The notes under the pieces were generated by a model, which did not search any database, was not told the origin of the DNA, and saw only the letters and a list, made by a program, of their open reading frames with translations. A DNA stretch of 64,000 bases. It comes from Lachnospiraceae bacterium (GTDB lineage Bacteria > Bacillota > Clostridia > Lachnospirales > Lachnospiraceae). The stretch spans positions 1 through 64,000 of the forward strand of contig FUZG01000008.1 of NCBI GenBank assembly GCA_900168235.1. The letters run 5' to 3'. Below, piece after piece: positions 24,740-47,222 of the stretch (its first letter is position 1; the number at the start of each line of letters is the position of its first letter). Position numbers and translations under genes: made by a program.

Positions 24740-24768
24740 TTGCAAAGGGTGTTAGAATCTGCTAACAT
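24740..24768 (+). promoter_or_regulatory. Iron-type promoter P1: -35, palindrome, -10
   Basis: TTGCAA (24740-24745), 17 bases, TAACAT (24763-24768). A perfect GTTAG-N6-CTAAC palindrome (24751-24766) starts 11 bases after the -35 start and overlaps the -10. It drives the FeoB-associated small protein and the DtxR-type regulator. Same design as P2-P6 at 36065, 36419, 42597, 46291 and 47171. Confidence 0.7.
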
Positions 24769-24828
24769 GATAGTCGGTGAAAGCACGCTGGTAGTGTGAT
24801 TTGATTAGTAATTTAGGAGGCTTTTTAT

Positions 24829-25041
24829 ATGGCATCACTTATTGTTCTTCTGCTCTTACTGATTGCCTGTGCAGGAGCGATGCATTATATCTGGCAGGCA
24901 AAGAAAAGCGGAACCTGCATTGGATGCGGTGAAGGAAAATGCAGTCATAACTGCGCTCATTATGCTGCGGAACAGGCAGAGCGTAAGAAATTGGATGAGA
25001 TACGCGCAGCAAAAGCTGCGGAAGAAAAGGGGCAGAGGTAA
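24829..25041 (+). CDS. FeoB-associated Cys-rich small membrane protein
   Basis: 70 residues: one membrane helix (~3-23), then a short cytoplasmic Cys/His cluster (TCIGCGEGKCSHNCAHY, ~30-46) and a charged helix. This pattern matches the small Cys-rich proteins usually found just behind feoB in Firmicutes and Bacteroidetes, thought to assist Fe(II) uptake. Here no feoA or feoB is adjacent; the partner is a DtxR-type regulator four bases downstream. A TTTAGGAGG ribosome site precedes the ATG. Expression is likely under the palindromic promoter at 24740. Confidence 0.82.
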   Translation: MASLIVLLLLLIACAGAMHYIWQAKKSGTCIGCGEGKCSHNCAHYAAEQAERKKLDEIRAAKAAEEKGQR

Positions 25042-25045
25042 GAGT

Positions 25046-25441
25046 ATGCAGGAATCAGGAGAGGATTATATCGAGACCATCTATCGCCTGAAGAAAAAGA
25101 ACGGCTCAGTCCGTTCCGTTGATGTGGCGAAAGAACTAGGTTTTTCAAGACCCAGTGTTTCACGTGCTGTAGGTATCCTTAAGAGGGATGGATATCTCAC
25201 AATGGATGAAAGCGGTGAACTGGAGCTCACTGAAAAGGGAAGAAAAAAAGCTACAGGAGTCTATGACCGTCACAGGACGCTCACGAGATTTCTGATGGAG
25301 ACCGCGAGTGTATCGGAAAAAACTGCTGAAGCAGACGCATGCCGTATAGAGCATGTCATAAGCGAGTCAACATTTCGCGGTATCAAAAAGTACATAAAGA
25401 GCGTAGATACAGAAAAACAGGAAACGGTTGGAACATTTTGA
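25046..25441 (+). CDS. DtxR/MntR-family metal-dependent repressor
   Basis: 131 residues. The winged helix (~3-65: EDYIETIYRLKKKNGSVRSV, DVAKELGFSRPSVSRAV, LKRDGYLTM) is followed by the metal-binding dimer domain (~66-125) with ACRIEHVISE, matching the Cys-x-x-Glu-His ligand set of DtxR/IdeR rather than the Asp/Glu set of MntR. The SH3-like C-terminal domain of full-length DtxR is missing. It is co-transcribed with the FeoB-associated protein, so Fe(II) is the likely corepressor. It is the best candidate to bind the GTTAG-N6-CTAAC palindromes of this window. ATG 25046 is taken; earlier in-frame codons overlap the small gene. Confidence 0.88.
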   Translation: MQESGEDYIETIYRLKKKNGSVRSVDVAKELGFSRPSVSRAVGILKRDGYLTMDESGELELTEKGRKKATGVYDRHRTLTRFLMETASVSEKTAEADACRIEHVISESTFRGIKKYIKSVDTEKQETVGTF

Positions 25442-25520
25442 CCTTATTCCTATACAATTTGACAAATCCTGGGTTTGGGAGTAACCTTTCGATTTATAAA
25501 GGAGGATAATACAAAAACAT

Positions 25521-25673
25521 ATGGACAGTATTGCTGACGCGGCCCTATCGGGCATAGGATTTGTAGTTATTAACTTTTTCCTTGTACTAGGCGCTGAAGG
25601 AATCCGAAGATTTTACGAAAAATTCAGGTCATATCGGCGGAAGGGGTTGGATATCCCTGAATCATATCGATAA
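25521..25673 (+). CDS. Small 50-residue membrane-anchored protein
   Basis: ATG 25521 to TAA 25673. Predicted sequence starts MDSIADAALSGIGFVVINFF, one helix (~9-27), followed by a basic tail (RRFYEKFRSYRRKG). A TTGACA box near 25459 and GGAGG at 25501-25505 precede it; the GGAGG-ATG gap of 15 bases is long. Not recognised. It follows the DtxR-type gene and could belong to its regulon, but no palindrome is present at its promoter. Confidence 0.5.
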   Translation: MDSIADAALSGIGFVVINFFLVLGAEGIRRFYEKFRSYRRKGLDIPESYR

Positions 25674-25690
25674 ACTAAATAGAGAAAAAT

Positions 25691-25722
25691 AACGGGGAGA
25701 GCCTGAGAGGGTTCTCCCCGTT
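25691..25722. terminator. Bidirectional terminator before pyrG end
   Basis: AACGGGGAGA / TCTCCCCGTT stem, 12-base loop, A-rich left side and T-rich right side; it serves the small gene and the convergent pyrG. Confidence 0.85.
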
Positions 25723-25735
25723 GATTTTATCTTTT

Positions 25736-27343
25736 TTATGCTTCAGCGTGCTTAAGGATCGCTTCGATGAATCCGCGGAACAGAGGGTGCGGACGGTTCG
25801 GGCGGGATTTAAACTCAGGATGAGCCTGTGTAGCAACGAACCAGGGGTGATCCGGAAGCTCTACCATCTCAACGATGTGTCCGTCAGGTGAAAGGCCGCT
25901 GAGCTTCATGCCGGCTTTGGTGAGGTCATCTCTGTAGTAGTTATTAACCTCATAACGATGACGGTGACGCTCATATATCACATCCTCGCCGTAGAGCTCA
26001 TGAGCCTTGGAACCTTTCTCAAGATGGCAGGGATAAGAACCAAGACGGAGAGTTCCGCCGATGTCTTCGATACCATCCTTGTCCGGCATGATGTGGATAA
26101 CAGGATGAGTAGTCTCAGGATCCTGCTCTGTGCTGTTCGCATCAGAATATCCAAGAACATCTCTTGCAAATTCAACGATAGAAAGCTGCATACCGAGGCA
26201 GAGACCAAGGTAAGGAACACCGTTTTCACGTGCATAGCGGATAGAAGTCAGCATACCGTCGATACCGCGCTGGCCGAAACCACCGGGAACGATGATACCG
26301 TCTACATCGCCAAGCATCTCTTCAACATTATCCGGAGTGATATCCTCAGAAGAAAGCCACTTAATATCAATATCAGCTTCGTGTGCGATAGCACCGTGCT
26401 TTAATGCCTCAACAACGCTGATATAAGCATCGTGAAGAGCAACATACTTTCCGACGAGTGCCAGATGAGCAGTCTTCTTCGGGTTAAGAAGCTTATTTAC
26501 CATGGATGCCCACTCAGTGAGGTCAGGCTTCTGGTTCTCAAGGTGAAGGAGATCGCAGACATCATCAGCAAGGTGCTCCTCTTCCATAGCGAGCGGTGCA
26601 GCGTAAACAGTAGGAAGGTTCAGGTTCTGGATAACATTCTTCTTTGGAACGTTACAGAAAAGAGAAATCTTTTCCTTGATATTCTCATCAAGAGGCTTCT
26701 CAGTACGGCATACAACGATGTCAGGCTGGATACCAAGTGCCTGAAGCTCGCGTACGCTTGCCTGTGTAGGCTTAGTCTTAAGCTCCTCTGATGCGTGGAG
26801 ATAAGGAACCAGTGTTACGTGGATAAGGATAGCGTTTTCATGTCCGATATCATGCTGGAACTGACGGATAGACTCGATGAAAGGCTGGCTTTCGATGTCG
26901 CCTACGGTTCCGCCGACCTCGATGATAGCGATATGTGTCTCGTTAGAACCGTCATTTCTGTAGAAACGGCTCTTGATCTCGTTTGTGATGTGAGGGATTA
27001 CCTGAACTGTGCCTCCGCCGAAATCTCCGCGTCTCTCCTTAGAAAGAACAGACCAGTAAACCTTACCTGTTGTTACATTAGAGCGCTTGTCCAGACTCTC
27101 ATCGATGAAACGCTCGTAATGACCGAGGTCGAGGTCAGTCTCTGTTCCATCGTCGGTTACAAAAACCTCACCGTGCTGGATCGGGTTCATTGTACCGGGA
27201 TCGATATTGATGTAGGGGTCAAATTTCTGCATGGTTACTTTGTAACCGCGCTCTTTCATAAGTCTTCCAAGAGAAGCTGCGGTGATACCCTTACCGAGAC
27301 CGGATACAACACCTCCTGTAACAAACACATATTTTACTGGCAT
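25736..27343 (-). CDS. pyrG: CTP synthase
   Basis: 535 residues, the usual length. Start at ATG 27341-27343 ([19 protein letters not shown]) behind AAAGGAG; the 34 extra in-frame codons lie in the leader. The N-terminal synthetase domain has the P-loop [13 protein letters not shown] and the [12 protein letters not shown] signature. The C-terminal glutamine amidotransferase has LGLCLGMQ (nucleophile Cys ~381) and a late HPEF with its His-Glu pair. It converts UTP to CTP with glutamine and ATP. Expression probably passes through the attenuator-like hairpin at 27374-27419. Confidence 0.97.
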
Positions 27344-27373
27344 GAATTTCTCCTTTCGAACTGCATTTTCCAT

Positions 27374-27419
27374 AAAAAAAGAGACAAAGACCCCGTAGAA
27401 AGGGACGCCTTTGCCTCTT
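27374..27419 (-). terminator. Leader attenuator hairpin of pyrG
   Basis: On the minus strand: AGAGGCAAAGGC, loop, GGTCTTTGTCTCT with G-U pairs, then seven T residues, located between the promoter and the pyrG start. Such a leader terminator is known for pyrG of Bacillus. The Bacillus initiation sequence GGGC is not present at the predicted start (CCGTT), so a different control is possible. Confidence 0.65.
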
Positions 27420-27472
27420 CTGCTTCGCTCACTAAAAACATTCATTGTTTTCGCGCGTTTTTTAACGGAAAA

Positions 27473-27501
27473 ATTATAAGAGCATGATTAAATATTGTCA
27501 A
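27473..27501 (-). promoter_or_regulatory. Consensus sigma-A promoter of pyrG
   Basis: Minus strand TTGACA, exact 17-base spacer, TATAAT: a perfect match to consensus. Transcription would start near 27466, leaving a leader of about 120 bases with the attenuator. Confidence 0.85.
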
Positions 27502-27612
27502 TCAGTTTTTTGAAATAAAAAACATCAAATTTTGAAAGGTTAATGTATTCAGTAAAAAGCGTCGATATAAGAGCTGACAGGTTTTGTTGCGGCTTAACGG
27601 AAGGAGTTTTTT

Positions 27613-27975
27613 ATGGCAGTACAGATGAACGGACTTGATCAGAATACAGTAAATGCATGGCAGAACAGCAGCACAGAAAAAAATCAGGACTTAAGATCCG
27701 AATTTTCTGCCGCAGTTCAGGAAATATATGATAAGGTAAAGAACGGAGATACGGAGGAAAGTATTCCAATCGGCGGGCAGTCCTTTACGGTAAAAGAGTG
27801 GGACAAGATGATGCGCCGTTTTGACCGTATCCAGGAAGGTATCCGCGAGTCCATCGAGGAAGAGATAGAAAAGCGGAAGGCAGAAAATGAAGATCGTTTA
27901 GAAAGGCATAAGGCTGAGATCTCAAAGAAAGATAAAGAGTCCGACACGATGGAGCTTTTTGAAGAGATCTTGTGA
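27613..27975 (+). CDS. Conserved hypothetical, charged helical protein
   Basis: 120 residues behind AAGGAG. The middle (IPIGGQSFTVKEWDKMMRRFD, ~55-75) looks like a small folded motif; the rest is predicted helical and strongly charged, with a coiled-coil-like C-terminus (SIEEEIEKRKAENEDRLERH). No signal peptide or helix in the membrane. I have seen similar proteins in Lachnospiraceae without known function. It lies four bases before the HAD phosphatase and probably shares its transcript. Confidence 0.7.
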   Translation: MAVQMNGLDQNTVNAWQNSSTEKNQDLRSEFSAAVQEIYDKVKNGDTEESIPIGGQSFTVKEWDKMMRRFDRIQEGIRESIEEEIEKRKAENEDRLERHKAEISKKDKESDTMELFEEIL

Positions 27976-27979
27976 CTGA

Positions 27980-28606
27980 ATGGTAGTAATGGCAGAGATA
28001 ACAACAGTAATATTTGATATAGGAAATGTCCTTATAGGTTTTGACGGAGGGGATTTTCTTAAGAGACTATTTGATGAAAAGACAGCTGAAATAGTGGCGG
28101 ATGCCATGTTTGGCGGAAAATGGTGGAATGAGCTTGACCGCGGAGTCTTCTCTGATGAAGAGATCGTTGGCGGCTTTATAGAGCGTGCACCGGAATATGA
28201 AAAAGAAATCAAAGAGGCTTTTGGCAGAGTGAATGAGTGTATTCACCGTGTCGACTATGCCATTCCCTGGATCAGAGAGGTAAAGAAAGCAGGATTTGAG
28301 ACATATTTCCTGTCCAATTATTCGGAGCATGTGCTGGACCACAGTACTCATGCGATGGATTTCCTTCCGCTCCTCCTTGGCGGAATATTTTCATGCAGGG
28401 TGAAGATGGTAAAACCGGACAGTGAGATCTACAGACTTTTCCTTGATACCTATAAGAAAAAGCCGGAGGAATGTCTCTTTATCGATGATACAGAAGCGAA
28501 TATCAAGGCGGCAGAAGAATTAGGTATCAATGGATGGCATTTCCACGGATATGAAAAGGATCATGATGCCATTATGAAATATCTGCAGGAGAATGGTCGG
28601 AAATAA
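27980..28606 (+). CDS. HAD-superfamily hydrolase (subfamily IA)
   Basis: 208 residues. Motif I is FDIGNVLIGFD (~12-22), where Asp13 is the nucleophile but the usual second Asp at +2 is Gly-Asn, as in YihX-like HAD proteins. Motif II is TYFLSNYS (~112), motif III Lys in KMVKPDSEIY (~142), motif IV FIDDTEANIKAAEELG (~172-187). It probably acts on a sugar or nucleotide phosphate. ATG 27980 and ATG 27989 are both possible; neither has a strong ribosome site, so translation may be coupled to the gene before it. Confidence 0.88.
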   Translation: MVVMAEITTVIFDIGNVLIGFDGGDFLKRLFDEKTAEIVADAMFGGKWWNELDRGVFSDEEIVGGFIERAPEYEKEIKEAFGRVNECIHRVDYAIPWIREVKKAGFETYFLSNYSEHVLDHSTHAMDFLPLLLGGIFSCRVKMVKPDSEIYRLFLDTYKKKPEECLFIDDTEANIKAAEELGINGWHFHGYEKDHDAIMKYLQENGRK

Positions 28607-28650
28607 GGAGTTATTTAGTGTGGTAAAGCGTTAATTTGATGTAATTTTTC

Positions 28651-28680
28651 TTGACATAAAAAATCGGACTGATTTATAAT
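28651..28680 (+). promoter_or_regulatory. Promoter of the dapF-dapL unit
   Basis: TTGACA (28651-28656), 18-base spacer, TATAAT (28675-28680). Confidence 0.75.
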
Positions 28681-28689
28681 TTCACTCAG

Positions 28690-28733
28690 AAAGAGCAAGG
28701 GAGCTTTTTTATTGGCTATCTCTCGCTCTTTTT
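28690..28733 (+). terminator. Leader hairpin upstream of dapF, attenuator-like
   Basis: AAAGAGC (28690-28696) pairs with GCTCTTT (28725-28731), with extra inner GGGAG/CTCTC pairing, then TTTT. It lies between the promoter and the dapF start, so it may attenuate transcription. No lysine riboswitch features were recognised. Confidence 0.5.
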
Positions 28734-28778
28734 ACGTTTAAATAAAAGAGCTTTGAGGTTTCAAGGAGCAGAAGCATA

Positions 28779-29642
28779 ATGAAATTTACGAAAATGCAGG
28801 GCTGCGGAAATGATTACGTATATATAAACGGGTTTGCCGAAAAAATTGCGGATCACAGCAAGGCAGCTATTTTCTTAAGCAATCGAAATTTCGGTGTTGG
28901 TTCTGACGGCTTGATCTTTATTAATCCGTCGGAAAATGCTGATTTTGAGATGGAAATGTACAATTCCGACGGCTCCAGATCAGAAATGTGCGGCAACGGC
29001 ATGCGTTGCGTCGGAAAGTATGTATATGATCATGGTCTTACAGATAAAACACACTTTACTGTAGATACTCTTGCAGGAGTGAAAACTCTGGATCTAAAAG
29101 TGGCTGACGGAAAGGCCTATGAGATCACTGTTGATATGAGTTCTCCGATACTTACACCGGAACTTATTCCCGTAAAGGCAGAGGGGCTTGATCCTAAGGC
29201 AGAGTCGGCAGTGAAGGTTCCGATACGAGTACTTGATAAAGATTATGAGATGACTTGTGTTTCCATGGGAAATCCTCACGCAGTGATCTTTGTTGACGAG
29301 GATCCTGTAAATCTCGATCTTCCGAAGATCGGTCCTCAGTTTGAAAATCATGAAGATTTTCCGAACAGGACCAATACAGAATTTATCTATGTTAAGGACA
29401 GAAAGCACCTTGTGATGAGAGTGTGGGAGAGAGGAACAGGAGAAACTCTCGCCTGCGGAACAGGTGCCTGTGCATCCCTTGTAGCGGCAGTACTTAACGG
29501 ACTTGCTGATGATGAGGTTGAGATAAAACTGCTCGGCGGTACATTAAAGGTCCGCTGGGACAGAGAAGAAAATAAAGTATACCTGACAGGACCGGCAGTT
29601 ACGGTCTTTGAGGGTGAAATGGAGAATTCATGCTTACAGTAA
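28779..29642 (+). CDS. dapF: Diaminopimelate epimerase
   Basis: 287 residues. The two catalytic cysteines are in motifs EMCGNGMRC (Cys71) and LACGTGACA (Cys ~226); GNDYVYING and GNPHAVIF are also present. The enzyme interconverts LL- and meso-diaminopimelate, the last step before peptidoglycan and lysine use. The stop overlaps the start of the LL-DAP aminotransferase by 13 bases, so the two are translated together and form adjacent steps of the aminotransferase variant of lysine biosynthesis. Confidence 0.97.
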
Positions 29643-30847
29643 ATGAAAACTATCTGAAACTCAGAGGTTCATATCTCTTTTCAGATATCGCAAAAAAGGT
29701 GTCAGCCTTTACAACCGCAAACCCTGACAGGACTATCATCCGTCTCGGTATCGGTGATGTTACTGAGCCTCTTACGCCCACTATCGTAAAAGCGCTTAAA
29801 GACGCAGTAGAAGAGCAGGCTCATGCTGAGACTTTCAGAGGTTATACCCCTGATCTCGGATATGATTTCCTTAGAAATGCTATCGCTGAGCACGATTACA
29901 AGGCGCGCGGCTGCAAGATCGAGGCTGATGAGATCTTTGTTTCCGATGGCGCAAAGAGTGATTCCGGAAATATTCAGGAGATTTTTTCTGACAAGGTACG
30001 TGTAGCCGTATGTGACCCTGTTTACCCCGTTTACGTGGATACAAACGTAATGGGCGGACGCGCAGGTGTATTTGATGAGGCCCGTGAGCAGTGGAGCAAC
30101 ATCATCTATATGCCCTGCACTGCTGAAAACGGTTTTGTACCGGAATTTCCTGCTGAGACACCGGATCTGATCTATATCTGTTCACCTAATAATCCGACAG
30201 GATCCGCGCTTAAAAAAGACGAGCTTCAGAAGTGGGTAGATTATGCAAATGAGCATGGATCTGTCATCATTTTTGATGCTGCATACGAAGCATACATCAC
30301 AGAAGAGGATGTACCTCACTCTGTTTATGAGTGCAGAGGTGCTGAGACTTGTGCTATTGAGATTCATTCTTTCTCTAAAAATGCAGGATTTACAGGTGTT
30401 CGTCTGGGATACACTGTTGTTCCGAAGGCGCTTAAGGATGCAAACGGAGTGTCGATCCACAGTCTTTGGACGCGTCGTCACGGAACCAAGTTTAACGGTG
30501 CTCCTTACATCCAGCAGAGAGCAGGAGAAGCGGTTTATTCTGAAGCAGGTCAGAAGGAAGTTCGTGAACTTGTTTCCTACTACATGGAAAATGCGCGCAT
30601 GATCCGCGAGGGTCTTACTAACGCCGGATATACAGTTTACGGTGGTGTAAATGCGCCTTATATCTGGCTCAAGACACCTGACAATATGACAAGCTGGCAA
30701 TTTTTTGATCATCTTCTTGAAAAAGCAGGTATCGTAGGTACTCCGGGTTCGGGATTCGGACCTTCGGGAGAAGGATACTTCCGCCTTACTGCATTTGGAA
30801 ATCACGAGAATACCAAAGCGGCAGTTGAGAGATTCCAGACTCTTTGA
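29630..30847 (+). CDS. dapL: LL-diaminopimelate aminotransferase
   Basis: 405 residues, class I/II PLP fold. The N-terminus ([20 protein letters not shown]) and [11 protein letters not shown] are typical for Dap[26 protein letters not shown] and the PLP lysine in [14 protein letters not shown] (~250) are present. It converts tetrahydrodipicolinate to LL-DAP in one step, bypassing the succinylase or acetylase branches. Pairing with dapF confirms the assignment. It starts inside the last codons of dapF. Confidence 0.96.
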
Positions 30848-30885
30848 GGAATCATCTGAACTGCTGCGATGACCCGTACTGTTCC

Positions 30886-30955
30886 GTTGTCTAGGTTATT
30901 TTTCACAGAGGGAAAATTAGATGACTGGTATTTCGGTCTTTTTTCCCTAGACAAC
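30886..30955. repeat. 70-bp hairpin element with 10-bp perfect ends
   Basis: GTTGTCTAGG (30886-30895) and CCTAGACAAC (30946-30955) form a perfect inverted repeat. Inside, GGGAAAA/TTTTCCC and GACTG/CGGTC can pair as well, followed by a T-run. It could terminate dapL, or be a small palindromic element. It lies about 95 bases before asnB. Confidence 0.55.
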
Positions 30956-31048
30956 ACTTAACATAAGGAGATTAAGTGGTTTGTGAACAGTAACCTCGTG
31001 ATTAAAATGCAGGCAGCGACTATGCTGCTAAAAAGGTGAGGTATAACT

Positions 31049-32635: not shown

Positions 32636-32674
32636 TAAATACTCCTTGTTTTGTACAAAAATATGACCATTTTA

Positions 32675-32706
32675 CCCGCCGTGAAAGGTTGATGTTTCAC
32701 GGCGGG
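32675..32706 (+). terminator. Terminator of asnB
   Basis: Perfect 12-bp stem CCCGCCGTGAAA / TTTCACGGCGGG, eight-base loop, then TGTTTTATTTTT. Confidence 0.9.
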
Positions 32707-32760
32707 TGTTTTATTTTTAAATAAGGGTGCAGGGAGTTTTTATAAGAAGGGGGGATGCCT

Positions 32761-32913: not shown

Positions 32914-32917
32914 AAAA

Positions 32918-32945: not shown

Positions 32946-32980
32946 AGTCTTTATCAGTATAAACCCGCTTAAAGCCTTAT

Positions 32981-36064: not shown

Positions 36065-36115
36065 TTGACAGATGTGTTAGCTGGTGCTAAATTAACATTG
36101 TTAGTTGAAGCTAAC
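36065..36115 (+). promoter_or_regulatory. Iron-type promoter P2 with two palindromes
   Basis: TTGACA (36065-36070), 17 bases, TAAATT (36088-36093). TTAGC-N4-GCTAA (36077-36090) overlaps the -10; GTTAG-N6-CTAAC (36100-36115) covers the predicted start. First palindrome begins 11 bases after the -35 start, as in P1 and P3-P6; the second begins 24 bases later, as in P5. Confidence 0.72.
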
Positions 36116-36212
36116 TACCGCAAAAGTACAGGTTCATGCGCATGAATTTTGTACAACTTTCAGATTTCTCTTACCTTGGCCTGCCGTGCCCAGCCATCAC
36201 GGCAGGCTCATT
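36100..36212 (+). ncRNA. Candidate iron-responsive small RNA A
   Basis: Predicted transcript from promoter P2. It would start in a GTTAG/CTAAC stem-loop, followed by a hairpin with the perfect palindrome TTCATGCGCATGAA (36133-36146) extended by GTAC/GTAC pairing. Then comes the unpaired AGATTTCTCTTACC (36162-36175), and a GC-rich hairpin GCCTGCCGTG/CACGGCAGGC (36179-36207) with a weak T-rich tail. It holds no convincing reading frame. The AGATTTCTC stretch is shared with the RNA at 46326. The leader of pflB begins only downstream, at a separate promoter. Confidence 0.55.
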
Positions 36213-36418: not shown

Positions 36419-36447
36419 ATGACAAGATTGTTAACCAAAGCTAACTA
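36419..36447 (+). promoter_or_regulatory. pflB promoter P3 with GTTA-type palindrome
   Basis: ATGACA (36419-36424), 17 bases, TAACTA (36442-36447). GTTAACCAAAGCTAAC (36430-36445) is one base from the GTTAG-N6-CTAAC palindrome and again starts 11 bases after the -35 start. The promoter has no second palindrome. Confidence 0.6.
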
Positions 36448-36480: not shown

Positions 36481-38739
36481 ATGTTGTTACAGAACGAAGA
36501 ATGGAAAGGCTTTGAAGGCCGCCTTTGGAAGGAAGAGTGCAACGTACGCGATTTCATCCAGAATAACTATGAGCCGTATGACGGAGACGAGAGCTTCCTC
36601 GCAGACGCTACAGATGCTACAAACAAGCTCTGGGGCAGACTTCAGGAGCTTCAGAAGGAAGAGCGCGCAAAGGGCGGCGTTCTTGATATGGAGACAGAGG
36701 TAGTTTCCAGCCTTACAGCTTATGGCCCGGGCTACATCGACGAGTCCATGAAGGATCTTGAGACAGTAGTAGGTCTTCAGACAGATAAGCCGCTTAAGAG
36801 AGCATTCATGCCTTTCGGTGGTATCAAGATGGCTGAGGAGTCCTGCCAGAACTACGGCTACACTCCGAACCCGAAGTTCCACAAGATCTTCAATGATTAT
36901 CATAAGACACACAACCAGGCAGTATTTGATGCATATACAGACGAGATGAGAGCAGCTCGCCGCAGCCACATCGTAACAGGTCTTCCTGATACATACGGCC
37001 GTGGACGTATCGTAGGCGACTACAGAAGAGTAGCTCTTTACGGTATCGACCAGCTCATCGCTTGGAAGAACGAAGACAAGAAGAACTGTGGCGATGGCAC
37101 AATGACAGATGATGTTATCCGTCAGAGAGAAGAGCTTGCTGAGCAGATCAAGGCTCTTAACGGAATGAAGGCTATGGCTCAGGCTTACGGCTTCGACATC
37201 TCTGCTCCTGCTAAGAACGCAAGAGAAGCAGTTCAGTGGCTGTACTTCGGCTACCTTGCAGCTGTTAAGACACAGAACGGTGCAGCTATGTCCGTTGGAC
37301 GTATCTCCACATTCCTTGATATCTACATGCAGAGAGACCTCAAGAACGGTACTCTTACAGAGGCTCAGGCTCAGGAGCTCATCGACCATATGACAATGAA
37401 GTTCCGTATGGTTAAGTTTGCTCGTATCACTTCTTACAACGAGCTGTTCTCCGGAGATCCGGTTTGGGCAACTCTTGAAGTTGGTGGTATCGGCATGGAT
37501 GGCCGCAGCATGGTTACAAAGAACGACTACAGATTCCTCCACACACTGGAGAACATGGGTCCTTCTCCGGAGCCGAACCTTACAGTTCTTTACTCTCCTG
37601 CACTTCCTGAGAACTTCAAGAAGTACGCTGCAAAGATCTCTGTAACAACATCTTCCATCCAGTATGAGAACGATGATGTTATGAAGCCGATCTGGGGCGA
37701 TGATTACTCCATCTGCTGCTGTGTATCTGCTACACAGACAGGTAAGGAGATGCAGTTCTTCGGAGCTCGTGCAAACCTTGCTAAGGCTCTTAACTACGCT
37801 ATCAATGGCGGTATCGATGAGAAGAGCGGTGTTCAGGTTGGACCTGCTTACAGACCGATCACTTCCGAGTACCTTGACTTCGATGAAGTTTATGCTTCAT
37901 ATGATCGTATGCTTGACTGGCTTGCAGGCCTCTATGTAAACGTACTTAACCTCATCCAGTACATGCACGACAAGTACTACTATGAGGCAGCTGAGATGGC
38001 TCTTATCGATACTGATGTACGTCGTACATTCGCTACAGGTATCGCAGGCTTCTCACACGTAATCGATTCCCTTTCTGCTATCAAGTATGCAAAGGTTAAG
38101 ACTGTACGTGATCCTGAGACAGGTCTCGTAGTTGACTACGAAGTAGAGGGCGATTTCCCGAAGTATGGTAACGATGATGACCGCGCTGATAACATCGGTG
38201 TTGAGGTTCTTCACAGCTTCCTGACAAAGATCAAGAAGAGACATACTTACAGAAATTCTGAGCCTACAACTTCTATCCTTACTATTACTTCTAACGTTGT
38301 ATATGGTAAGTACACAGGTAACCTTCCGGATGGAAGAAGAGCTTGGACACCGTTCGCTCCTGGTGCAAACCCGAGCTACGGCGCAGAGCAGAATGGTCTT
38401 CTTGCTTCCCTTAACTCTGTAGCTAAGATGCCGTATGAGTGGGCTCTTGATGGTATTTCCAATACTCAGACAATGAACCCGTCAGCTCTTGGTCACGATG
38501 ATGAGGAGAGAAAGAATAACCTTGTTAACGTACTTGACGGTTACTTCAGCCAGGGTTCACATCACCTGAACGTAAACGTATTTGGTAAGGAGAAGCTCAA
38601 GGACGCTATGGAGCATCCTGAGAAGCCTGAGTACGCTAACTTCACTATCCGTGTATCTGGTTATGCTGTTAAGTTCATCGATCTTACTCGTGAGCAGCAG
38701 ATGGATGTTATCTCCAGAACATTCCACGAGAAGCTTTGA
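36481..38739 (+). CDS. pflB: Pyruvate formate-lyase
   Basis: 752 residues. The adjacent catalytic cysteines lie in [12 protein letters not shown] (~410) and the glycyl radical in RVSGYAVKF (Gly727). It converts pyruvate and CoA to acetyl-CoA and formate anaerobically; the radical is installed by PflA encoded downstream. GGAGG sits ten bases before the ATG, and codon use is biased to a restricted set (AAG, CTT, GCT, ACA), as expected for a major fermentation protein. Regulation signals upstream include a Rex-like site and a GTTA palindrome in the promoter, suggesting joint redox and metal control. Confidence 0.98.
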
Positions 38740-39679: not shown

Positions 39680-39689
39680 ATATGTAGTT

Positions 39690-39737
39690 AAAAGCCCTCT
39701 GAACCGGATTTATAACATTTCGGTTTGGAGGGCTTTT
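39690..39737 (+). terminator. Terminator of pflA
   Basis: AAAAGCCCTC / GAGGGCTTTT with inner ACCG/CGGT pairing. Confidence 0.85.
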
Positions 39738-39746
39738 GCATTTGTG

Positions 39747-39779
39747 GAGCACTTAGCGAAGTATTTCCGAGCCTTAGTG
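39747..39779. repeat. Intergenic hairpin repeat, family A copy 1
   Basis: GAGCACTTAGCGAAG ... CCGAGCCTTAGTG. Same pattern at 48354, 48440, 57556 and 57602: arms that pair imperfectly around a GCGARGTNTTNTCGAGC-like core. Confidence 0.6.
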
Positions 39780-39818
39780 TTGTGCGGGTAAAAATATTTT
39801 TGGAATCAACCGAACACT

Positions 39819-39865
39819 TGATTGGCTGCAACTTATTTTGTATAATATATCAGAATATACGTTCG
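39819..39865 (+). promoter_or_regulatory. SOS-type promoter with LexA box
   Basis: TTGATT (39819-39824), 16 bases, TATAAT (39841-39846), then AGAATATACGTTCG (39852-39865), 12 of 14 matches to the Gram-positive LexA box CGAACATATGTTCG. The box lies just after the -10, where LexA binding would block transcription. Confidence 0.75.
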
Positions 39866-39890
39866 TAATACGCGCGGGAAAGGAGGCAGT

Positions 39891-41396: not shown

Positions 41397-41397
41397 T

Positions 41398-41883
41398 ATG
41401 ACAAAGGATAGATTTGAAAATTCCTGGCATAATGTAAGAGGCGTTTCGGAAGAGGAACTGCGGGGAGATCCTGAAGTTATCAGAAAGTATGGTGATATAC
41501 TTAATACAAAGTGGGATGGTGTGAGAAACCATCTAAAGGCAAAGCCGGATGTGAGGGCTGCGCAGTTTTCACCTTTTGCAGCACTCACGGGATATGATGA
41601 TGAGATCCGTGAAACAGCGAGACTTACTGAATCGCAAAGAGATCTTGCAGAAGACGTCAGGGAAGAACTGGACATAAAAATGTGCGAGATACAGGCACGC
41701 TTTTCGGAACACCCGGAGATCTCCGTGACACACTTTGTTCCCGATCAGAATAAAAAGGGCGGTGCATACGTAACATTAGAAGGCACTGTACATAAAATTG
41801 ATGTGATTGAAGGCGTGTTGGTCATGACCGGAGGAAAAACTATAGATATAGACAGCATTTCTGAGATAGTGATAAAAGATTAG
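41398..41883 (+). CDS. YolD-like protein
   Basis: 161 residues starting two bases after the polymerase stop. The YolD-like region (residues ~50-160) contains the FSPFAALTGYDDEIRETARL stretch that precedes the SH3-like barrel in this family, and ends with ISEIVI. YolD-like proteins accompany UvrX-type polymerases and are predicted to be UmuD replacements. The N-terminal ~45 residues are an extra segment. Co-regulated by the LexA box at 39852. Confidence 0.85.
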   Translation: MTKDRFENSWHNVRGVSEEELRGDPEVIRKYGDILNTKWDGVRNHLKAKPDVRAAQFSPFAALTGYDDEIRETARLTESQRDLAEDVREELDIKMCEIQARFSEHPEISVTHFVPDQNKKGGAYVTLEGTVHKIDVIEGVLVMTGGKTIDIDSISEIVIKD

Positions 41884-41904
41884 AAGAAAAGTGGAGATAG
41901 TTAA

Positions 41905-42516
41905 ATGACTTACAATTTTTTTGCGGCAATATCCAGAATGAAATATATAGAGCGCTGGGCACTTATGAGAAACGCAAGAGCAGAGACTCTGTCGGAGCAC
42001 TGCCTCGATGTAGCAATGATCGCACACGTGCTCGCAGTCATGTCAAAGGTCAGGTACGGACATGATATAGATGCGGAGAAAGCGGCGCTTGTAGGACTTT
42101 ATCATGATGCGTCTGAGATCATTACAGGCGACATGCCTACCCCTGTGAAATATTTCAATAGGGATATCAGAACTGCATATAAGCAGATCGAGTCAATGGC
42201 GGAGGATAGGCTCATAAGCAAGCTTCCTGATGATCTAAAACCTGAATACGAGCGGATCTTTAAGGAAAAGAAGAATGAAGACGGTTCGGATGATCCGGAA
42301 GAAAAGTACATGAGACGGCTCGTAAAAGCAGCGGATAAGCTTTCTGCGCTTATCAAGTGCATGGAAGAACGGCAGGCAGGAAATTCTGAGTTCCGTACTG
42401 CGGAAAAAACTATCCGTGATTCGGTATACCGGATGTCAGAGGATATGCCGGAGGTGAAGGATTTTCTGGAGGAATTTCTACCACCATACGGTAATACATT
42501 GGATGAACTTTCGTAA
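41905..42516 (+). CDS. HD-domain 5'-deoxynucleotidase, YfbR-like
   Basis: 203 residues. The HD metal site is visible as SEHCLDVAMIAH (Glu31-His32) and LYHDASE (His67-Asp68), with a final Asp in AADKLSALIKC. YfbR enzymes dephosphorylate deoxynucleoside monophosphates such as dAMP and dUMP. Located 21 bases after the YolD-like gene, so it may be induced in the same SOS transcript, where it could adjust nucleotide pools. No membrane segment. Confidence 0.87.
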   Translation: MTYNFFAAISRMKYIERWALMRNARAETLSEHCLDVAMIAHVLAVMSKVRYGHDIDAEKAALVGLYHDASEIITGDMPTPVKYFNRDIRTAYKQIESMAEDRLISKLPDDLKPEYERIFKEKKNEDGSDDPEEKYMRRLVKAADKLSALIKCMEERQAGNSEFRTAEKTIRDSVYRMSEDMPEVKDFLEEFLPPYGNTLDELS

Positions 42517-42596
42517 GAGGCATCATGTGGGCGGGATAAAAGCGCGCGAAAACTCCACGGTAACCGGTTATTGAGAAAAAATGCTCAGTAAGAAAA

Positions 42597-42649
42597 TTGT
42601 TTTATAGGTTAAACTGTACTAATATCATAATTGATAATGAATATCATTC
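42597..42649 (+). promoter_or_regulatory. Iron-type promoter P4 with Fur-like box
   Basis: TTGTTT (42597-42602), 17 bases, TAATAT (42620-42625). GTTAAACTGTACTAA starts at +11 from the -35 start, as in P1-P6. At the position of the second palindrome is TGATA-N5-TATCA (42633-42647), which resembles half of the Fur consensus GATAATGATAATCATTATC. Confidence 0.6.
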
Positions 42650-42734
42650 TGTTTTTAAATGTTAATCTTATGCGTTTCTGACAGCCATGCCGGGACTTTC
42701 TATTAAGAACGAAAGGGACCGGCAGGCTTCTTTT
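42631..42734 (+). ncRNA. Candidate small RNA B upstream of the P-type ATPase locus
   Basis: Transcript predicted from P4 that ends in a long hairpin, TGCCGG-CTTTC / GAAAG-CCGGCA with outer GCC/GGC (42684-42727), and TTCTTTTGTG. No reading frame. It is separated by about 150 bases, including a new leader, from the small glycine-zipper gene. The alternative is a terminated leader of that gene. Confidence 0.42.
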
Positions 42735-42886
42735 GTGTTCTATTGAAAATATTTATCAATAAGTTCCCTTGTTTTTGACTATTTTTTGGACATACAATCA
42801 ATTAAAGTGCACGTAAATTCTGGCGAAATGATATAGGAGGTCCTAGATCATTTTGCTTTTGAACGTGGTTTGAAAGGAGAAAAAAT

Positions 42887-43216
42887 ATGATTCTTGAGTG
42901 TTTATCAAAAGTAGCGTGGAAAAAGGTTGGTCTGTTTGCAGGTGGTGTTCTTTTCGGAACAGCAGGTATCAAGATCCTCAGCAGCCAGGATGCAAAGAAG
43001 GCTTATACAGAGTGCACTGCTGCTGTTCTTCGTATGAAGGACTATACTCTTGAGAAGAAGGATATTCTCACAGAGAACTGCGCTGATATTTATGCTGATG
43101 CAAAGAGCATTAATGAGAAGAGAGATCAGGAGCGTCGTGAAAGAGAGTACAGAGAAGCTGAAGAGCTCTTAAAGGCAAAAAAATGTGCGGCAGAAGCAGC
43201 CGGTCTTGAGGTTTAA
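42887..43216 (+). CDS. Small glycine-zipper membrane protein (FezA-like or DUF6110-like)
   Basis: 109 residues. One hydrophobic helix (~12-33, VGLFAGGVLFGTAGIKI) has overlapping GxxxG spacing (Gly15-Gly19, Gly20-Gly24), which promotes tight helix packing. A charged, helical cytoplasmic region with KSINEKRDQERRE follows, and a single late Cys. It directly precedes an unusual P1B-type ATPase. In ferrosome loci a small membrane protein (FezA) accompanies the P1B-6 ATPase FezB; the arrangement and features agree, but sequence identity cannot be checked here. AAAGGAGAAAA forms the ribosome site. Confidence 0.6.
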   Translation: MILECLSKVAWKKVGLFAGGVLFGTAGIKILSSQDAKKAYTECTAAVLRMKDYTLEKKDILTENCADIYADAKSINEKRDQERREREYREAEELLKAKKCAAEAAGLEV

Positions 43217-43226
43217 TGTTGTTGTG

Positions 43227-43257
43227 TGAGCGAGCTTAAGGCGAGCGAACGGTAACA
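43227..43257. repeat. Short hairpin repeat, family B copy 2
   Basis: GTGAGCGAGC ... GCGAGCGAAC, GGTAAC; related to 2758-2791. It sits between the small membrane protein and the ATPase. Confidence 0.4.
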
Positions 43258-43283
43258 TGAAATAATATTTCGGATGGAGAAGT

Positions 43284-45365
43284 ATGAATTTTACAGTTTT
43301 GCATGAGAACGATGGTCAGATGCGTATCCGTGCACATGTATACGGCAAAATGACTGTACACGAGGCGGATCTTCTCCAGTATTACCTCATACAGAATCCC
43401 AATATCAAGAATGTGGTTGTGCATGAGAGAACGTCCTCTGTCATGATCAAATATAAGAATGACAGGCAGGATATTATAGATACGCTGCTCGCATTTGACT
43501 TTAATGATGATAAAAATGAAGAGCTCGTGCCTGAAAATACAGGACGGGCACTTGATCGTGAGTATGAAGACAGGCTTTTCTGGATAATCTGCGGAAGAAT
43601 CTTGATGAAAACGCTTACACCTGCGCCTGTAAGGGCTGTTCTCACCGGAGCAAACGCCCTTCGTTATCTCGTAAAGGGCGTAAAGAGCCTTAAGGGTGGA
43701 AAGCTCAAGGTAGAGGCACTGGATGCTACGGCGGTTACGGTGTCGATGCTTAGAAGTGACATTGATACCGCAGGTTCGATCATGTTCCTTTTGAGTGTGG
43801 GAGCGCTTCTTGAGGACTGGACACATAAGAAATCTGTAAGTGATCTGGCAAGGAGCATGGCTCTCAATGTAGCTCATGTCTGGAAAAAGACCGGAGACGG
43901 TGAGGAAGTCAGAGTTCGCGTAACGGATGTGAATGAGAATGATATCATCATAGTCCGTGCAGGAAATATGATACCGCTTGACGGTGTGGTTTCATCAGGT
44001 GAAGCCATGGTAAATCAGGCATCAATGACGGGGGAAGCGGTTTCGGTAAGAAAAAACGAAGGCGTGACCGTCTATGCCGGAACAGTCATAGAAGATGGCG
44101 AATTAGAAATAAGGGTCACAGCCGAATCAGGCGGAACGCGTTACGAAAAGATCGTCCGGATGATCGAAGAATCTGAAAAACTTAAGAGTGAGCTTGAAAC
44201 AAGGGCATCGTCTCTTGCAGATCATTTGGTGCCTTACAGTTTTGCCGGAACGATACTAACATATCTCTTTACGAGAAATGTGACGAGAGCACTTTCGGTC
44301 CTGATGGTAGATTTCTCCTGTGCGCTGAAGCTTGCTATGCCGATAGCGGTGATCTCTGCCATGCGTGAAGCCGGAAGTTACAAGATCACGGTCAAAGGCG
44401 GAAAATATCTGGAAGCTGTTTCAAGTGCAAGTACTATCGTATTTGATAAGACAGGAACGCTTACAAAAGCAGATCCGACTGTTGCGGATGTGATTCCTTT
44501 TGGCGGAAATGATAAGAATGAGATGCTGCGTCTGGCTGCGTGCCTTGAAGAGCATTTCCCTCATTCCATCGCAAATGCGGTCGTGAATAAAGCTCTTGAG
44601 CAAAATCTTGCACATGAGGAAATGCACTCGGAAGTAAAGTATATTGTGGCTCACGGTATAGCGAGTTCCGTTGACGGTCAGGACGTGGTGATAGGAAGTT
44701 ATCACTTTGTTTTCGAGGATGAGAAAACACAGATACCTGATGGTGAGAAAGAGAAGTTTGACAGTCTGGAACTTCAGTATTCCCACCTCTATCTCGCTAT
44801 CGGAGGAAAACTTGCTGCTGTCATTTATATCAGTGATCCTATCCGTGAAGAAGCAAGTGCGGTTATAACTACTCTTCATAAGATGGGGATCGAAAAGATC
44901 GTTATGATGACAGGTGACAGCGAACGCACGGCTGAAGCCATTGCGAAGCAGGTTGGCGTAGATGAATACTACGCAGAAGTTCTTCCTGAGGACAAAGCTG
45001 CATTTATCGACAGAGAACATGCAGAAGGCCGCAAGGTTATAATGGTCGGCGATGGAATCAATGATTCACCGGCACTCAGCGCATCGGATGCGGGCATTGC
45101 TATCAGCGAAGGTGCGCAGATCGCAAGGGAAGTAGCTGATATTACGGTTTCTGCGGATACGCTTTTTGAACTTGTGACGCTTAGAAATATCAGTGATTTC
45201 CTTATGAAGAGGATTGAGACGAATTATCGTTTTGTTATCGGCTTTAACTTTGGACTGATAGTGCTCGGAGTTTTTGGAGTTCTGCCGCCTGCTGTGTCAG
45301 CAGTACTGCATAATGCATCGACCGTAGGTGTGTCCCTTCACAGCATGACAGATCTTATCGAATAA
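43284..45365 (+). CDS. P1B-type metal ATPase with SCA motif (FezB/P1B-6-like)
   Basis: 693 residues. The N-terminal ~70 residues form a ferredoxin-like HMA fold without CxxC. The catalytic Asp is Asp388 in VFDKTGTLTK, the hinge MVGDGINDSPAL is at ~586-597, and the actuator TGEA is present. The metal-site helix reads DFSCALKLAMP (Ser345-Cys346-Ala347) instead of CPC, so this is neither a classic copper nor zinc/cadmium pump. The SCA motif and missing CxxC suggest the P1B-6 group that includes FezB, which loads iron into membrane-bound ferrosomes. Substrate assignment is inferred. A terminator follows. Confidence 0.8.
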   Translation: MNFTVLHENDGQMRIRAHVYGKMTVHEADLLQYYLIQNPNIKNVVVHERTSSVMIKYKNDRQDIIDTLLAFDFNDDKNEELVPENTGRALDREYEDRLFWIICGRILMKTLTPAPVRAVLTGANALRYLVKGVKSLKGGKLKVEALDATAVTVSMLRSDIDTAGSIMFLLSVGALLEDWTHKKSVSDLARSMALNVAHVWKKTGDGEEVRVRVTDVNENDIIIVRAGNMIPLDGVVSSGEAMVNQASMTGEAVSVRKNEGVTVYAGTVIEDGELEIRVTAESGGTRYEKIVRMIEESEKLKSELETRASSLADHLVPYSFAGTILTYLFTRNVTRALSVLMVDFSCALKLAMPIAVISAMREAGSYKITVKGGKYLEAVSSASTIVFDKTGTLTKADPTVADVIPFGGNDKNEMLRLAACLEEHFPHSIANAVVNKALEQNLAHEEMHSEVKYIVAHGIASSVDGQDVVIGSYHFVFEDEKTQIPDGEKEKFDSLELQYSHLYLAIGGKLAAVIYISDPIREEASAVITTLHKMGIEKIVMMTGDSERTAEAIAKQVGVDEYYAEVLPEDKAAFIDREHAEGRKVIMVGDGINDSPALSASDAGIAISEGAQIAREVADITVSADTLFELVTLRNISDFLMKRIETNYRFVIGFNFGLIVLGVFGVLPPAVSAVLHNASTVGVSLHSMTDLIE

Positions 45366-45390
45366 AAACTGATAAAAAATTATCACTACA

Positions 45391-45436
45391 AAAACAGCAA
45401 TTCTTTGCAGATGTCAGAGAATTGCTGTTTTTTATT
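45391..45436 (+). terminator. Terminator of the P-type ATPase unit
   Basis: AAAACAGCAATTCT / AGAATTGCTGTTTT, 14-bp perfect stem, then TTTATTT. Confidence 0.9.
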
Positions 45437-45609
45437 TAAACAATCTGATAAAATATTCTCATTTCAGCAGAGATGTATTAAAATGATGTCGGGGTTAATT
45501 GAAAAAGTACAAGTTCAAGGTCGATATTGTTTTTACTGAACAGAAATGGGCAATTTTTAGATGGGAAGTATTACCTATTTCAAAAGTCATACGTTGTGGA
45601 GGAGGATGT

Positions 45610-46185
45610 ATGAACGAATTTTTTCAGAAGCAGTTGTATCGATTTGCGGAAATGATGGAAACGGCAATGGCAGTATGCGTGGGTGTAGCTATTGTCGTTT
45701 CTTTATTTACTTTTGTGCCGAGGATAATGTATCTGCTGAGGGAAGGGGCGGATAAGGCAGAGTTAAATGAGGTTTTGGCGATAATATTTGTGATCGTGAT
45801 AGCCATTGAATTTCTGAAACTCTTGCTGAAACCGGATATGACAAGTGTCGTAGAGGTGCTGATATTCCTGATTGCCCGTCATATGATCATCGAAGACACA
45901 TCACCCACGCAGAATCTCATATCGATACTCAGCATCTGTCTCCTGTTCCTCATCGAGAACCTTCTGAAATACGGCGCATCATGGATGAAGAGATGGAAAA
46001 AGAGGGAAGACTTCAGGATAACGGAAACTCTTCACGAGCACGAGGAAAAGGGAATCGCTGATCTCGACGCCGGAGCGCTGACAAGCGAAAAGCCCAAGAA
46101 AGAAGAACCGAGAAAGGTTGCCGCTGTGATGGAGATGCGGTTTGACGATGTGGAGCCTCGGGTCAGTGGAAGACAGAATGTGTGA
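45610..46185 (+). CDS. PsiE-like four-helix membrane protein
   Basis: 191 residues from ATG 45610, directly behind GGAGGAGG; the upstream in-frame ATG at 45499 has no ribosome site. Four hydrophobic helices between ~15 and ~130 (for example AMAVCVGVAIVVSLFTFV and LNEVLAIIFVIVIAIEFLKL), LIARHMIIE in the loop as in the PsiE phosphate-starvation family, then a charged cytoplasmic tail rich in Glu and Lys. The function of PsiE proteins is unknown. The tail is longer than in E. coli PsiE. Confidence 0.65.
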   Translation: MNEFFQKQLYRFAEMMETAMAVCVGVAIVVSLFTFVPRIMYLLREGADKAELNEVLAIIFVIVIAIEFLKLLLKPDMTSVVEVLIFLIARHMIIEDTSPTQNLISILSICLLFLIENLLKYGASWMKRWKKREDFRITETLHEHEEKGIADLDAGALTSEKPKKEEPRKVAAVMEMRFDDVEPRVSGRQNV

Positions 46186-46290
46186 AACAGATATTGACGG
46201 AAGCTGAGCGTGTTGTTTCCAACGCATCACGGGACAAAAAGGAGTGATTAAGCGCAGAAGTAAGTGAGAATGATTGATCGATAAGAAGCA

Positions 46291-46341
46291 TTGACGATGG
46301 TGTTAGCTTGTGCTAATATAACCTTGTTAGCAAAAACTAAC
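46291..46341 (+). promoter_or_regulatory. Iron-type promoter P5 with two palindromes
   Basis: TTGACG (46291-46296), 17 bases, TAATAT (46314-46319). TTAGC-N4-GCTAA (46303-46316) overlaps the -10; GTTAG-N6-CTAAC (46326-46341) covers the predicted start. The distance between palindromes (24 bases) equals that in P2. Confidence 0.75.
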
Positions 46342-46408
46342 GTAGTAAACTTTAGATTTCTCCTATTCAGAATACAGCCGCGGTCGAGCCAACCGCGGCT
46401 GTTTTTTT
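46326..46408 (+). ncRNA. Candidate iron-responsive small RNA C
   Basis: About 83 bases from the predicted start of P5 to a strong terminator: CAGCCGCGGT (46375-46384) / ACCGCGGCTG (46392-46401) and seven T residues. The 5' end would fold into a GTTAG/CTAAC hairpin, leaving AGATTTCTCCTATTC (46354-46368) unpaired. That stretch matches the RNA at 36100 (AGATTTCTC) and is complementary to Shine-Dalgarno sequences. There is no ORF. It sits alone between the PsiE-like and YdjM-like genes. Confidence 0.68.
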
Positions 46409-46471
46409 GACGTTTTATGGAAGGGTACGTTATTATATAGTCCGAAAAAATGATAGGAGACATAATGATTC

Positions 46472-47113
46472 ATGCTTGGAAAAACACATTTTTTTGTAGG
46501 TACAGCGGCGGCACTTGTGGTGATGGAACCGAGGACGCTGCCGATAATGGTCGCAGGAACAGGAGCTGCAGCGCTTGGCGGCGTTATAAGTGACGTAGAT
46601 TCGGGAACATCAGTGGCTCATAAAGACGCGGATAAGATCATAGCCGTATCGGTATTTATCATCGGTGCAGTAATCGTATTGGAGTACTTCTTTCACCTTG
46701 GTATTTATAACAGACTGGAAAGAGACAGCAATATTGCCAGAATCCTGATAGGTCTGATGGCATTTATACTGGTGTGTGCATTTGGTATGCAGCAGCCCCA
46801 TCGGGCATTTATGCATTCATTTCTGGCGATGGCGCTTCTGACTGCCTGCGTGGGGATAGTTTTCCCGGCAGTGGCACCCTACTTTGCGATCGGTTTTGCA
46901 TCCCATCTGCTGGTGGATGTATTCAATAAAAAAGGAGAGAAATTGTTGTGGCCCTATAAAAAAGGTTTTAGTTTCAGACTCTGCTCATCACATGGTACAG
47001 TGAACAGCCTGCTGATGGCAGGTGGAATGGCGGTTTCTGCTCTGTACTTTGCATTATCATCACCGATACATACAGCAGTCGGAAAAGTGATGACAATGAT
47101 CTCACTTAAATAA
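46472..47113 (+). CDS. YdjM-type membrane-bound metal-dependent hydrolase
   Basis: 213 residues. The N-terminus MLGKTHFFVGTAAAL with His6, ISDVDSGTS (~48) and QQPHRAFMHSFLAMALL (~109-125), then FASHLLVDVFNKKG (~148), carry the conserved His/Asp residues of the YdjM/LexA-regulated hydrolase family. Five or more membrane helices. The substrate is unknown in the family; phospholipid or undecaprenyl-type substrates have been suggested. The ribosome site AGGAG lies 13 bases before this ATG; an out-of-frame ATG at 46465 is better spaced, which could weaken expression. Confidence 0.78.
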   Translation: MLGKTHFFVGTAAALVVMEPRTLPIMVAGTGAAALGGVISDVDSGTSVAHKDADKIIAVSVFIIGAVIVLEYFFHLGIYNRLERDSNIARILIGLMAFILVCAFGMQQPHRAFMHSFLAMALLTACVGIVFPAVAPYFAIGFASHLLVDVFNKKGEKLLWPYKKGFSFRLCSSHGTVNSLLMAGGMAVSALYFALSSPIHTAVGKVMTMISLK

Positions 47114-47170
47114 AAATCCCTATAAATCAAATGCCACTTCTTTATTGATAATTGAAGATCAAAAACGCAC

Positions 47171-47222
47171 TTGTTCTGTCTGTTAGTCTGTGCTAATATC
47201 TAAATAGTTAGAATAGACTAAC
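47171..47222 (+). promoter_or_regulatory. Iron-type promoter P6 of flavodoxin
   Basis: TTGTTC (47171-47176), 17 bases, TAATAT (47194-47199). GTTAGTCTGTGCTAA (47182-47196) at +11 and GTTAG-N6-CTAAC (47207-47222) at the predicted start. Flavodoxin as a target is the strongest hint that the palindromes report iron. Confidence 0.75.

Follow-up and report, generated by a model that had tools for sequence, protein, structure and literature searches.

Palindromic DtxR-type operators and a conserved family of predicted small RNAs suggest an iron-linked regulon in Lachnospiraceae

Introduction

Small RNAs (sRNAs) that spare iron are known in Proteobacteria, Bacillus, Staphylococcus and mycobacteria (PMC9410917). 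Here we describe palindromic operators, and short predicted RNAs that begin within some of them, in a 64-kb window (the whole stretch of DNA analyzed) of the 3.79-Mb draft genome of a Lachnospiraceae bacterium (G000). FsrA of Bacillus subtilis and IsrR of Staphylococcus are linked to iron and have C-rich stretches that pair with the Shine-Dalgarno sequence of mRNAs for iron-sulphur (Fe-S) enzymes, as proposed for these elements, and glutamate synthase, among the targets of IsrR, would be a shared target type (PMC9410917). They are however controlled by Fur, whereas in the present case the operator is of the DtxR type, the UUUCUCCUA core is single and short, Rfam gives no match in the window and the host belongs to Lachnospiraceae. 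MrsI of Mycobacterium tuberculosis is likewise an iron-sparing sRNA, with a box for the DtxR-family repressor IdeR, but employs a six-nucleotide seed towards bfrA and hypF (PMC8628891); here the operators are in tandem, and the second is probably transcribed as a 5' stem. Among the sRNAs tabulated in a 2022 review, none is assigned to DtxR as iron regulator (PMC9294342, Table 1), although MrsI with its IdeR box is one.

The DtxR and IdeR regulons resemble the present system in their DtxR-family protein and their TTAG...CTAA half sites, and differ in half-site spacing. No exact match to the classical 19-bp box, TTAGGTTAGCCTAACCTAA, was found in the window (plus strand searched; the box is palindromic). 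In Clostridioides difficile and Clostridium acetobutylicum, flavodoxin and feo are under iron control linked to Fur instead of DtxR, and the word sRNA is absent from the main text of that report (PMC6311696); flavodoxin rises at low iron in C. difficile (PMC6311696), which fits the regulon proposed below. The matches listed in our literature searches held no report of a clostridial or Lachnospiraceae iron-sparing sRNA. If the proposal is correct, strict anaerobes with an Fe-S-based metabolism gain a short, defined RNA that ties hydrogenase, glutamate synthesis and flavodoxin to iron. The genus includes the Lachnospiraceae isolates NK4A144, MC2017 and MA2020, which carry the RNA and in which the hypothesis is testable, as well as many metagenome-assembled genomes, several of them from the rumen.

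Results and Discussion

Palindromic operators of one design

A first-pass annotation of the window had proposed that six promoters (P1-P6) share one palindrome and form a local iron regulon under the DtxR-type regulator encoded at 25046. The palindromes proved real: they are conserved and far exceed chance expectation. Exactly six copies of the pattern NTG-N8-GTTA-N7-CTAA are present in the window, all on the plus strand and all at P1-P6, with no copy on the minus strand and no seventh copy in the 64 kb. When the window was dinucleotide-shuffled 60 times, TTGN8GTTAN7CTAA, observed five times, had a mean of 0.03 (maximum 1), and GTTAGN6CTAA, observed 11 times on both strands, a mean of 0.42 (maximum 3). 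A second palindrome, annotated 24-25 bases after the first at four promoters, was recovered at P2, P5 and P6 (GTTAG-N6-CTAAC, at 24, 24 and 25 bases), but at P4 it is Fur-box-like and does not belong to the GTTAG type. The uniform 17-base spacer between the -35 and -10 boxes is present as well, yet it does not count as independent evidence, because the TAA of the palindromic CTAA is also the start of the -10 hexamer.

Genome-wide, specificity depended on the form of the motif. GTTAGN6CTAA alone gave 22 matches versus 16 for a reversed control pattern, with 11 of the 22 inside the window, and the single motif is thus near background elsewhere. The doubled and promoter-embedded forms are in contrast specific: GTTAGN6CTAAN{9,10}GTTAG occurs three times in the genome, every time in the window (control 0), and a search of 117 genomes found it in 18, against two control matches over the whole set.

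The genes behind the operator support the proposed link of a common operator class to iron. It precedes the genes of a FeoB-associated protein and the DtxR-type regulator (P1), flavodoxin (P6) and, in other genera, Feo genes, namely feoA in G111 and G068 (Pfam-checked for G111) and, as a single palindrome, feoB in G049. In G083 it stands before a ZIP transporter gene and a Na/Pi cotransporter gene. On the sequence evidence the regulon is real and conserved, but it is not purely local: similar sites were found elsewhere in this genome near the promoters of two ABC transporter (ATPase-permease) genes (L107:10338-12122 and L105:3874-5670) and of an LCM-type methyltransferase gene (L108:5988-6779). 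A feoB gene is found some 4 kb away from one of the two ABC transporter genes, and these loci are possibly a metal or siderophore uptake set.

A conserved family of predicted small RNAs

The short transcripts proposed in the first pass hold up at P2 and P5 as conserved predicted sRNAs; what had gone unnoticed is their anti-Shine-Dalgarno core, which alters the role expected of the regulon. The predicted P5 RNA spans about 84 nt and combines the invariant core AGAUUUCUCCUA with a terminator hairpin. The core is unpaired in the predicted fold (z -4.6), leaving a seed complementary to Shine-Dalgarno regions. The second palindrome coincides with the expected transcription start, 7 nt past the -10 box, and on account of this location the second operator in the DNA probably also serves as the RNA's 5' stem.

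Ten aligned copies retain GTTAGCA, AGATTTCTCCTA and the loop AGCCA. The terminator stem is fully paired in seven copies (six distinct), and 7 of its 11 pairs have changed on both sides; the covariation score was reached by none of 500 shuffles, and 16 named pairs were paired in 100% of cells, compared to 16-47% in slid controls. A covariance model (R1) detected one copy per genome in 18 of the 48 genus genomes. An operator-plus-core pattern located the RNA in 21 of the 48 (11 of the 22 of good quality), including all 18 found by R1, with a single control match; it returned 22 matches, from which L378, a second and background-like match in G010, was left out. By eye, the full GTTAGN6CTAAC opens the RNA in 21/21, despite its outer G and C not being demanded by the pattern, and the upstream operator is present as well at 18 of the 21 loci. 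Conversely, in genus members with a double operator the stretch that follows is nearly always a P5-type or P2-type RNA. Two subfamilies, with loop GAGCCA or CAGCCA (including this genome) and with loops such as GTGGGATAC, have the core ATTTCTCCT in common. Rfam 15 gave no match at gathering score in the window. By sequence, these predicted transcripts constitute with high confidence a new sRNA family.

An occurrence of the RNA outside the genus was considered and set aside. A family-wide scan matched 8 of 397 genomes, of which only the genus members G000, G014 and G041 were judged genuine by eye. Scanning the genome collection yielded 24 stretches: 16 from the genus, one with the whole architecture (L411) and seven that by eye do not resemble the RNA. 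L411, from Clostridia bacterium RGIG5014, displays promoter, start palindrome, AGATTTCTCCTA core and terminator, and its genome may lie outside the genus. Two of the seven, L397 and L403, contain paired palindromes in a different layout. In the window itself, an additional R1 match at 15400-15486 (15.8 bits) falls within a long open reading frame and was taken as chance.

The P2 RNA and the pflB leader

By sequence comparison the P2 RNA is a diverged paralogue of the P5 RNA (25.4 bits and E 0.0028 against R1 in the window; fold z -3.5), conserved in four genomes. An extra near-perfect palindromic hairpin, GTACAGGTTCATGCGCATGAATTTTGTAC at 36126-36154, lies within it and is nearly invariant in the four.

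These RNAs could in principle be attenuated leaders of the next gene rather than trans-acting, a reading that we regard as very unlikely. It would account for the steady distance of 405-416 nt between P2 and pflB in the four genomes and for the weak T run of the P2 hairpin in this one. The P5 RNA, however, fronts different genes across species (YdjM here; by eye, flavodoxin preceded by a further double operator in G009 and G014, DUF6110 in G033 and ackA in G032 and G015) and ends in a strong terminator, which argues that it is not the leader of one gene. With a promoter and a terminator of its own and conservation as RNA, the P5-type element instead appears as an independent unit, save in G007.

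P3 departs from the shared promoter design. Its -35 box, ATGACA, reads ATAGCA in the three relatives aligned, the palindrome GTTAACCAAAGCTAAC is invariant and a better-conserved promoter is located upstream; the P3 palindrome is for these reasons probably an operator inside the 5' untranslated region of pflB.

The putative repressor and its signal

The assignment of the 25046 product to the DtxR type was confirmed, with the N-terminal winged helix (PF01325, 46.3 bits) and the metal-binding and dimerisation domain (PF02742, 60.2 bits) both above cut-off in family scans read from an upstream TTG (192 aa). It missed the NCBIfam equivalog cut-offs for MntR or DtxR (89.9 vs 153, 73.1 vs 138, 60.2 vs 290 and 35.5 vs 350). 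In an alignment to IdeR, read by eye, it keeps Cys102, Glu105 and His106 and replaces Met10 by Asp, Glu83 by Thr and His98 by Glu. In IdeR numbering, the three retained residues belong to the primary site, and two ancillary ligands are changed.

Several observations connect this protein with the RNAs and make it the probable repressor. Seven of the 11 close dtxR orthologues (at least 68% identity) have the operator upstream, and the RNA is present in all 11 genomes with such an orthologue, which occurs in none of 27 RNA-negative genomes (p 2e-5); this co-occurrence may be explained by common descent, as the 11 genomes may form one clade. In G032 the RNA starts 134 nt past the dtxR stop, and in G023 some 33 nt separate its end from the stop of a dtxR-like gene that converges on it.

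Alternatively, the operator of the sRNAs and flavodoxin is bound by another regulator, be it Fur or a second DtxR-like protein that this genome encodes at C9:58636. The Fur-box-like TGATAATGAATATCA at P4, with one change in G014, would be congruent with the former, and the operator is missing at 4 of the 11 dtxR orthologues (G035, G010, G015 and G032). We nevertheless find this alternative unlikely, considering that GTTAGN6CTAAC is unlike a Fur box, that the operator fronts dtxR itself in the remaining seven and that the RNA lies so close to dtxR or a dtxR-like gene in G032 and G023.

As to the signal, iron is our best guess from the genes behind the operator. Manganese, or both metals, would bring the system closer to MntR/RsaC than to iron sparing, and would agree with the Asp at the IdeR/DtxR Met10 position, as in MntR, with the best NCBIfam matches of 25046 being MntR models, though below cut-off, and with the ZIP transporter gene in G083. 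Against this, the protein retains the primary-site Cys of DtxR/IdeR, and Feo genes and flavodoxin point to iron; a manganese signal therefore seems rather improbable.

Candidate targets

Candidate targets were defined by a ribosome-binding site complementary to the core, AGGAGAAAT-N0-7-ATG, with all matches read in five RNA-positive genomes and open frames below 80 aa removed before counting. In this genome 23 matches yielded 13 open frames of at least 80 aa. Among them are a monomeric [FeFe] hydrogenase, the glutamate synthase GltA, an XDH-type 2Fe-2S subunit, HemL, QueD, a TSCPD protein, an OPT transporter, a molybdopterin-binding protein, and two proteins that each have a Cys cluster (by eye), one an FMN-dependent dehydrogenase and the other FMN reductase-like. 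Control sites followed AGGAGRTWT (49 of 51 matches examined, two within the window left out), and an RNA-negative set comprised G028 and G039 (51 of 58 matches read, seven from G028 left out), with the RNA-positive G041 excluded from it.

An Fe-S-type Cys motif was present in 6 of the 13 target-site genes versus 2 of 34 control-site genes of this genome (p 0.003). The other four RNA-positive genomes gave 6/17, 6/19, 2/18 and 1/13, and G028 and G039 together 0/21 by the same rule. Merged into protein families and set against both controls, the difference was 10/57 vs 2/55 (p 0.017). Five of the six families matched in at least three genomes are iron or Cys-cluster proteins, by a post hoc cut and with three of the genomes being close relatives. 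Iron proteins that escape the rule are, in G033, NifH, PurF, GltB and rubrerythrin; in G042, PurF and an aconitase-family protein; and, in G014, G031 and G042, a lactaldehyde reductase of the iron-type alcohol dehydrogenase family. Four near-identical gene copies in G033 (L166-L169; TnpB-like by eye) carry the site AGGAGAAATCTGCATG, a perfect match to the core, and were counted once. A single target of the P5 RNA with long complementarity was considered and dropped; the sole other place within 3 mismatches of 22 is inside coding sequence (by eye).

Another possibility is that the core serves as a general anti-Shine-Dalgarno or protein-binding element and that the enrichment of iron enzymes is accidental. 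Congruent with this, the family-pooled comparison with the control sites alone falls to 10/57 vs 2/34 (p 0.10), and prismane-like and rubrerythrin-like genes of the RNA-negative G039, missed by the rule, have the target site (by eye); in that genome the RNA was not found by pattern, with 30 of 32 core matches read. The 6/13 vs 2/34 in this genome, the 0/21 in the RNA-negative pair and the recurrent families argue in the other direction, and we consider a general element somewhat unlikely. The RNAs likely target iron enzymes, the evidence for the targets being suggestive only, and an iron-sparing function is plausible.

Proposed mechanism

The explanation that we favor, by a modest degree, is that P1, P2, P5 and P6, with the weaker P3 and P4, form a regulon of GTTAG-N6-CTAAC operators, often in tandem, under DtxR-type repression, and that its RNAs spare iron. 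One operator of a tandem overlaps the -10 box and the other sits at the transcription start. When iron is sufficient, a DtxR-family repressor, most likely the 25046 product, would bind the operators with Fe(II) and keep the promoters off. When iron is short, flavodoxin would be made in place of ferredoxin, along with the FeoB-associated protein, the regulator and the two sRNAs. The P5 RNA would then expose AGAUUUCUCCUA, pair with UAGGAGAAAU-type ribosome-binding sites and block translation of iron-sulphur and other iron enzymes, such as the monomeric [FeFe] hydrogenase, the NADPH-dependent GltA and Cys-cluster flavoproteins, leaving iron to be spared.

Several observations weigh against this explanation, in addition to the dtxR orthologues without operator, the pooled comparison and the G039 genes given above. 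The other 10 RNA-positive genomes offer a best regulator match of only 47-53% identity, and 18 RNA-negative genomes likewise have a regulator match. Across the 17 kb and 14 kb that surround this genome's two feoB genes, the sole GTTAGN6CTAA belongs to the ABC transporter gene, and feoB itself thus shows no operator here. In C. difficile pfl goes down under low iron (PMC6311696), opposite to the derepression of pflB expected if P3 is a simple repressor site. On the target side, the molybdopterin-binding protein among the six Cys-motif genes is probably a motif coincidence, an aconitase-family gene missed by the rule is among the control-site genes (by eye), and the P5 RNA has no further site at a gene start that comes within 3 mismatches of 22 complementary bases. 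Finally, G007 has no clear terminator after the core.

More tentatively, and with slightly less than even confidence, we suggest that a lineage of Clostridia evolved its own DtxR-controlled iron-sparing RNA, the second tandem operator being its 5' stem. This RNA would silence [FeFe] hydrogenase and glutamate synthase, and the same operator would turn on flavodoxin. In rumen-type anaerobes, iron supply would in this manner re-route both the flow of electrons and the output of hydrogen.

Features of the window and the P4 leader

Table 1. Positions of the operators, predicted RNAs and genes in the window
Feature	Position	Strand	Details
P1 promoter	24740-24768	+	TTGCAA-N17-TAACAT; operator GTTAGAATCTGCTAAC at 24751-24766
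FeoB-associated Cys-rich membrane protein gene	24829-25041	+	Pfam PF12669, 28.1 bits, cut-off 27
DtxR-family metalloregulator gene	25046-25441	+	131 aa, two-domain; Pfam PF01325, PF02742; best solved relatives IdeR/DtxR
P2 promoter	36065-36093	+	TTGACA-N17-TAAATT; first operator 36076-36091; conserved in G009, G014, G031
P2 RNA (predicted)	36100-36212	+	Starts in second operator 36100-36115
P2 RNA core	36162-36173	+	AGATTTCTCTTA
P2 RNA hairpin	36178-36208	+	Loop CAGCCA
Conserved promoter upstream of P3	36372-36400	+	TTGATT-N17-TAGTAT
P3 operator (probable)	36430-36445	+	GTTAACCAAAGCTAAC; four-genome alignment
pflB, formate C-acetyltransferase	36481-38739	+	TIGR01255, 1124 bits
P4 promoter	42597-42625	+	GTTAAACTGTACTAAT at 42608-42623
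P4 Fur-box-like element	42632-42646	+	TGATAATGAATATCA
P4 hairpin	42684-42727	+	
DUF6110 gene	42887-43216	+	
Heavy-metal P-type ATPase gene	43284-45365	+	
P5 promoter	46291-46319	+	TTGACG-N17-TAATAT; first operator 46302-46317
P5 small RNA (predicted)	46326-46409	+	Second operator/5' stem 46326-46341
P5 RNA core	46354-46365	+	AGATTTCTCCTA, invariant
P5 RNA terminator	46374-46402	+	Followed by T run
P6 promoter	47171-47199	+	TTGTTC-N17-TAATAT; first operator 47182-47197, second 47207-47222
Flavodoxin gene	47249-47680	+	
DUF3793 gene	47677-48294	+	

The second palindrome of P4 differs by one change in G014 (TGATAACGAATATCA) and is absent in G033; the aligned stretch of G009 ends before it. In the P4 leader (42597-42760) a stable hairpin precedes GGCTTCTTTTG, and G014 has a hairpin of different sequence at the same place. 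A riboswitch of the NiCo/Sensei type was considered for this leader and discarded, as Rfam at relaxed threshold returned five chance-level matches, none of that kind. Just past the flavodoxin-DUF3793 pair, at 48561-51089, reside a CobW-type GTPase and a DHO_dh/4Fe-4S protein, which lack an operator and are possible further metal genes.

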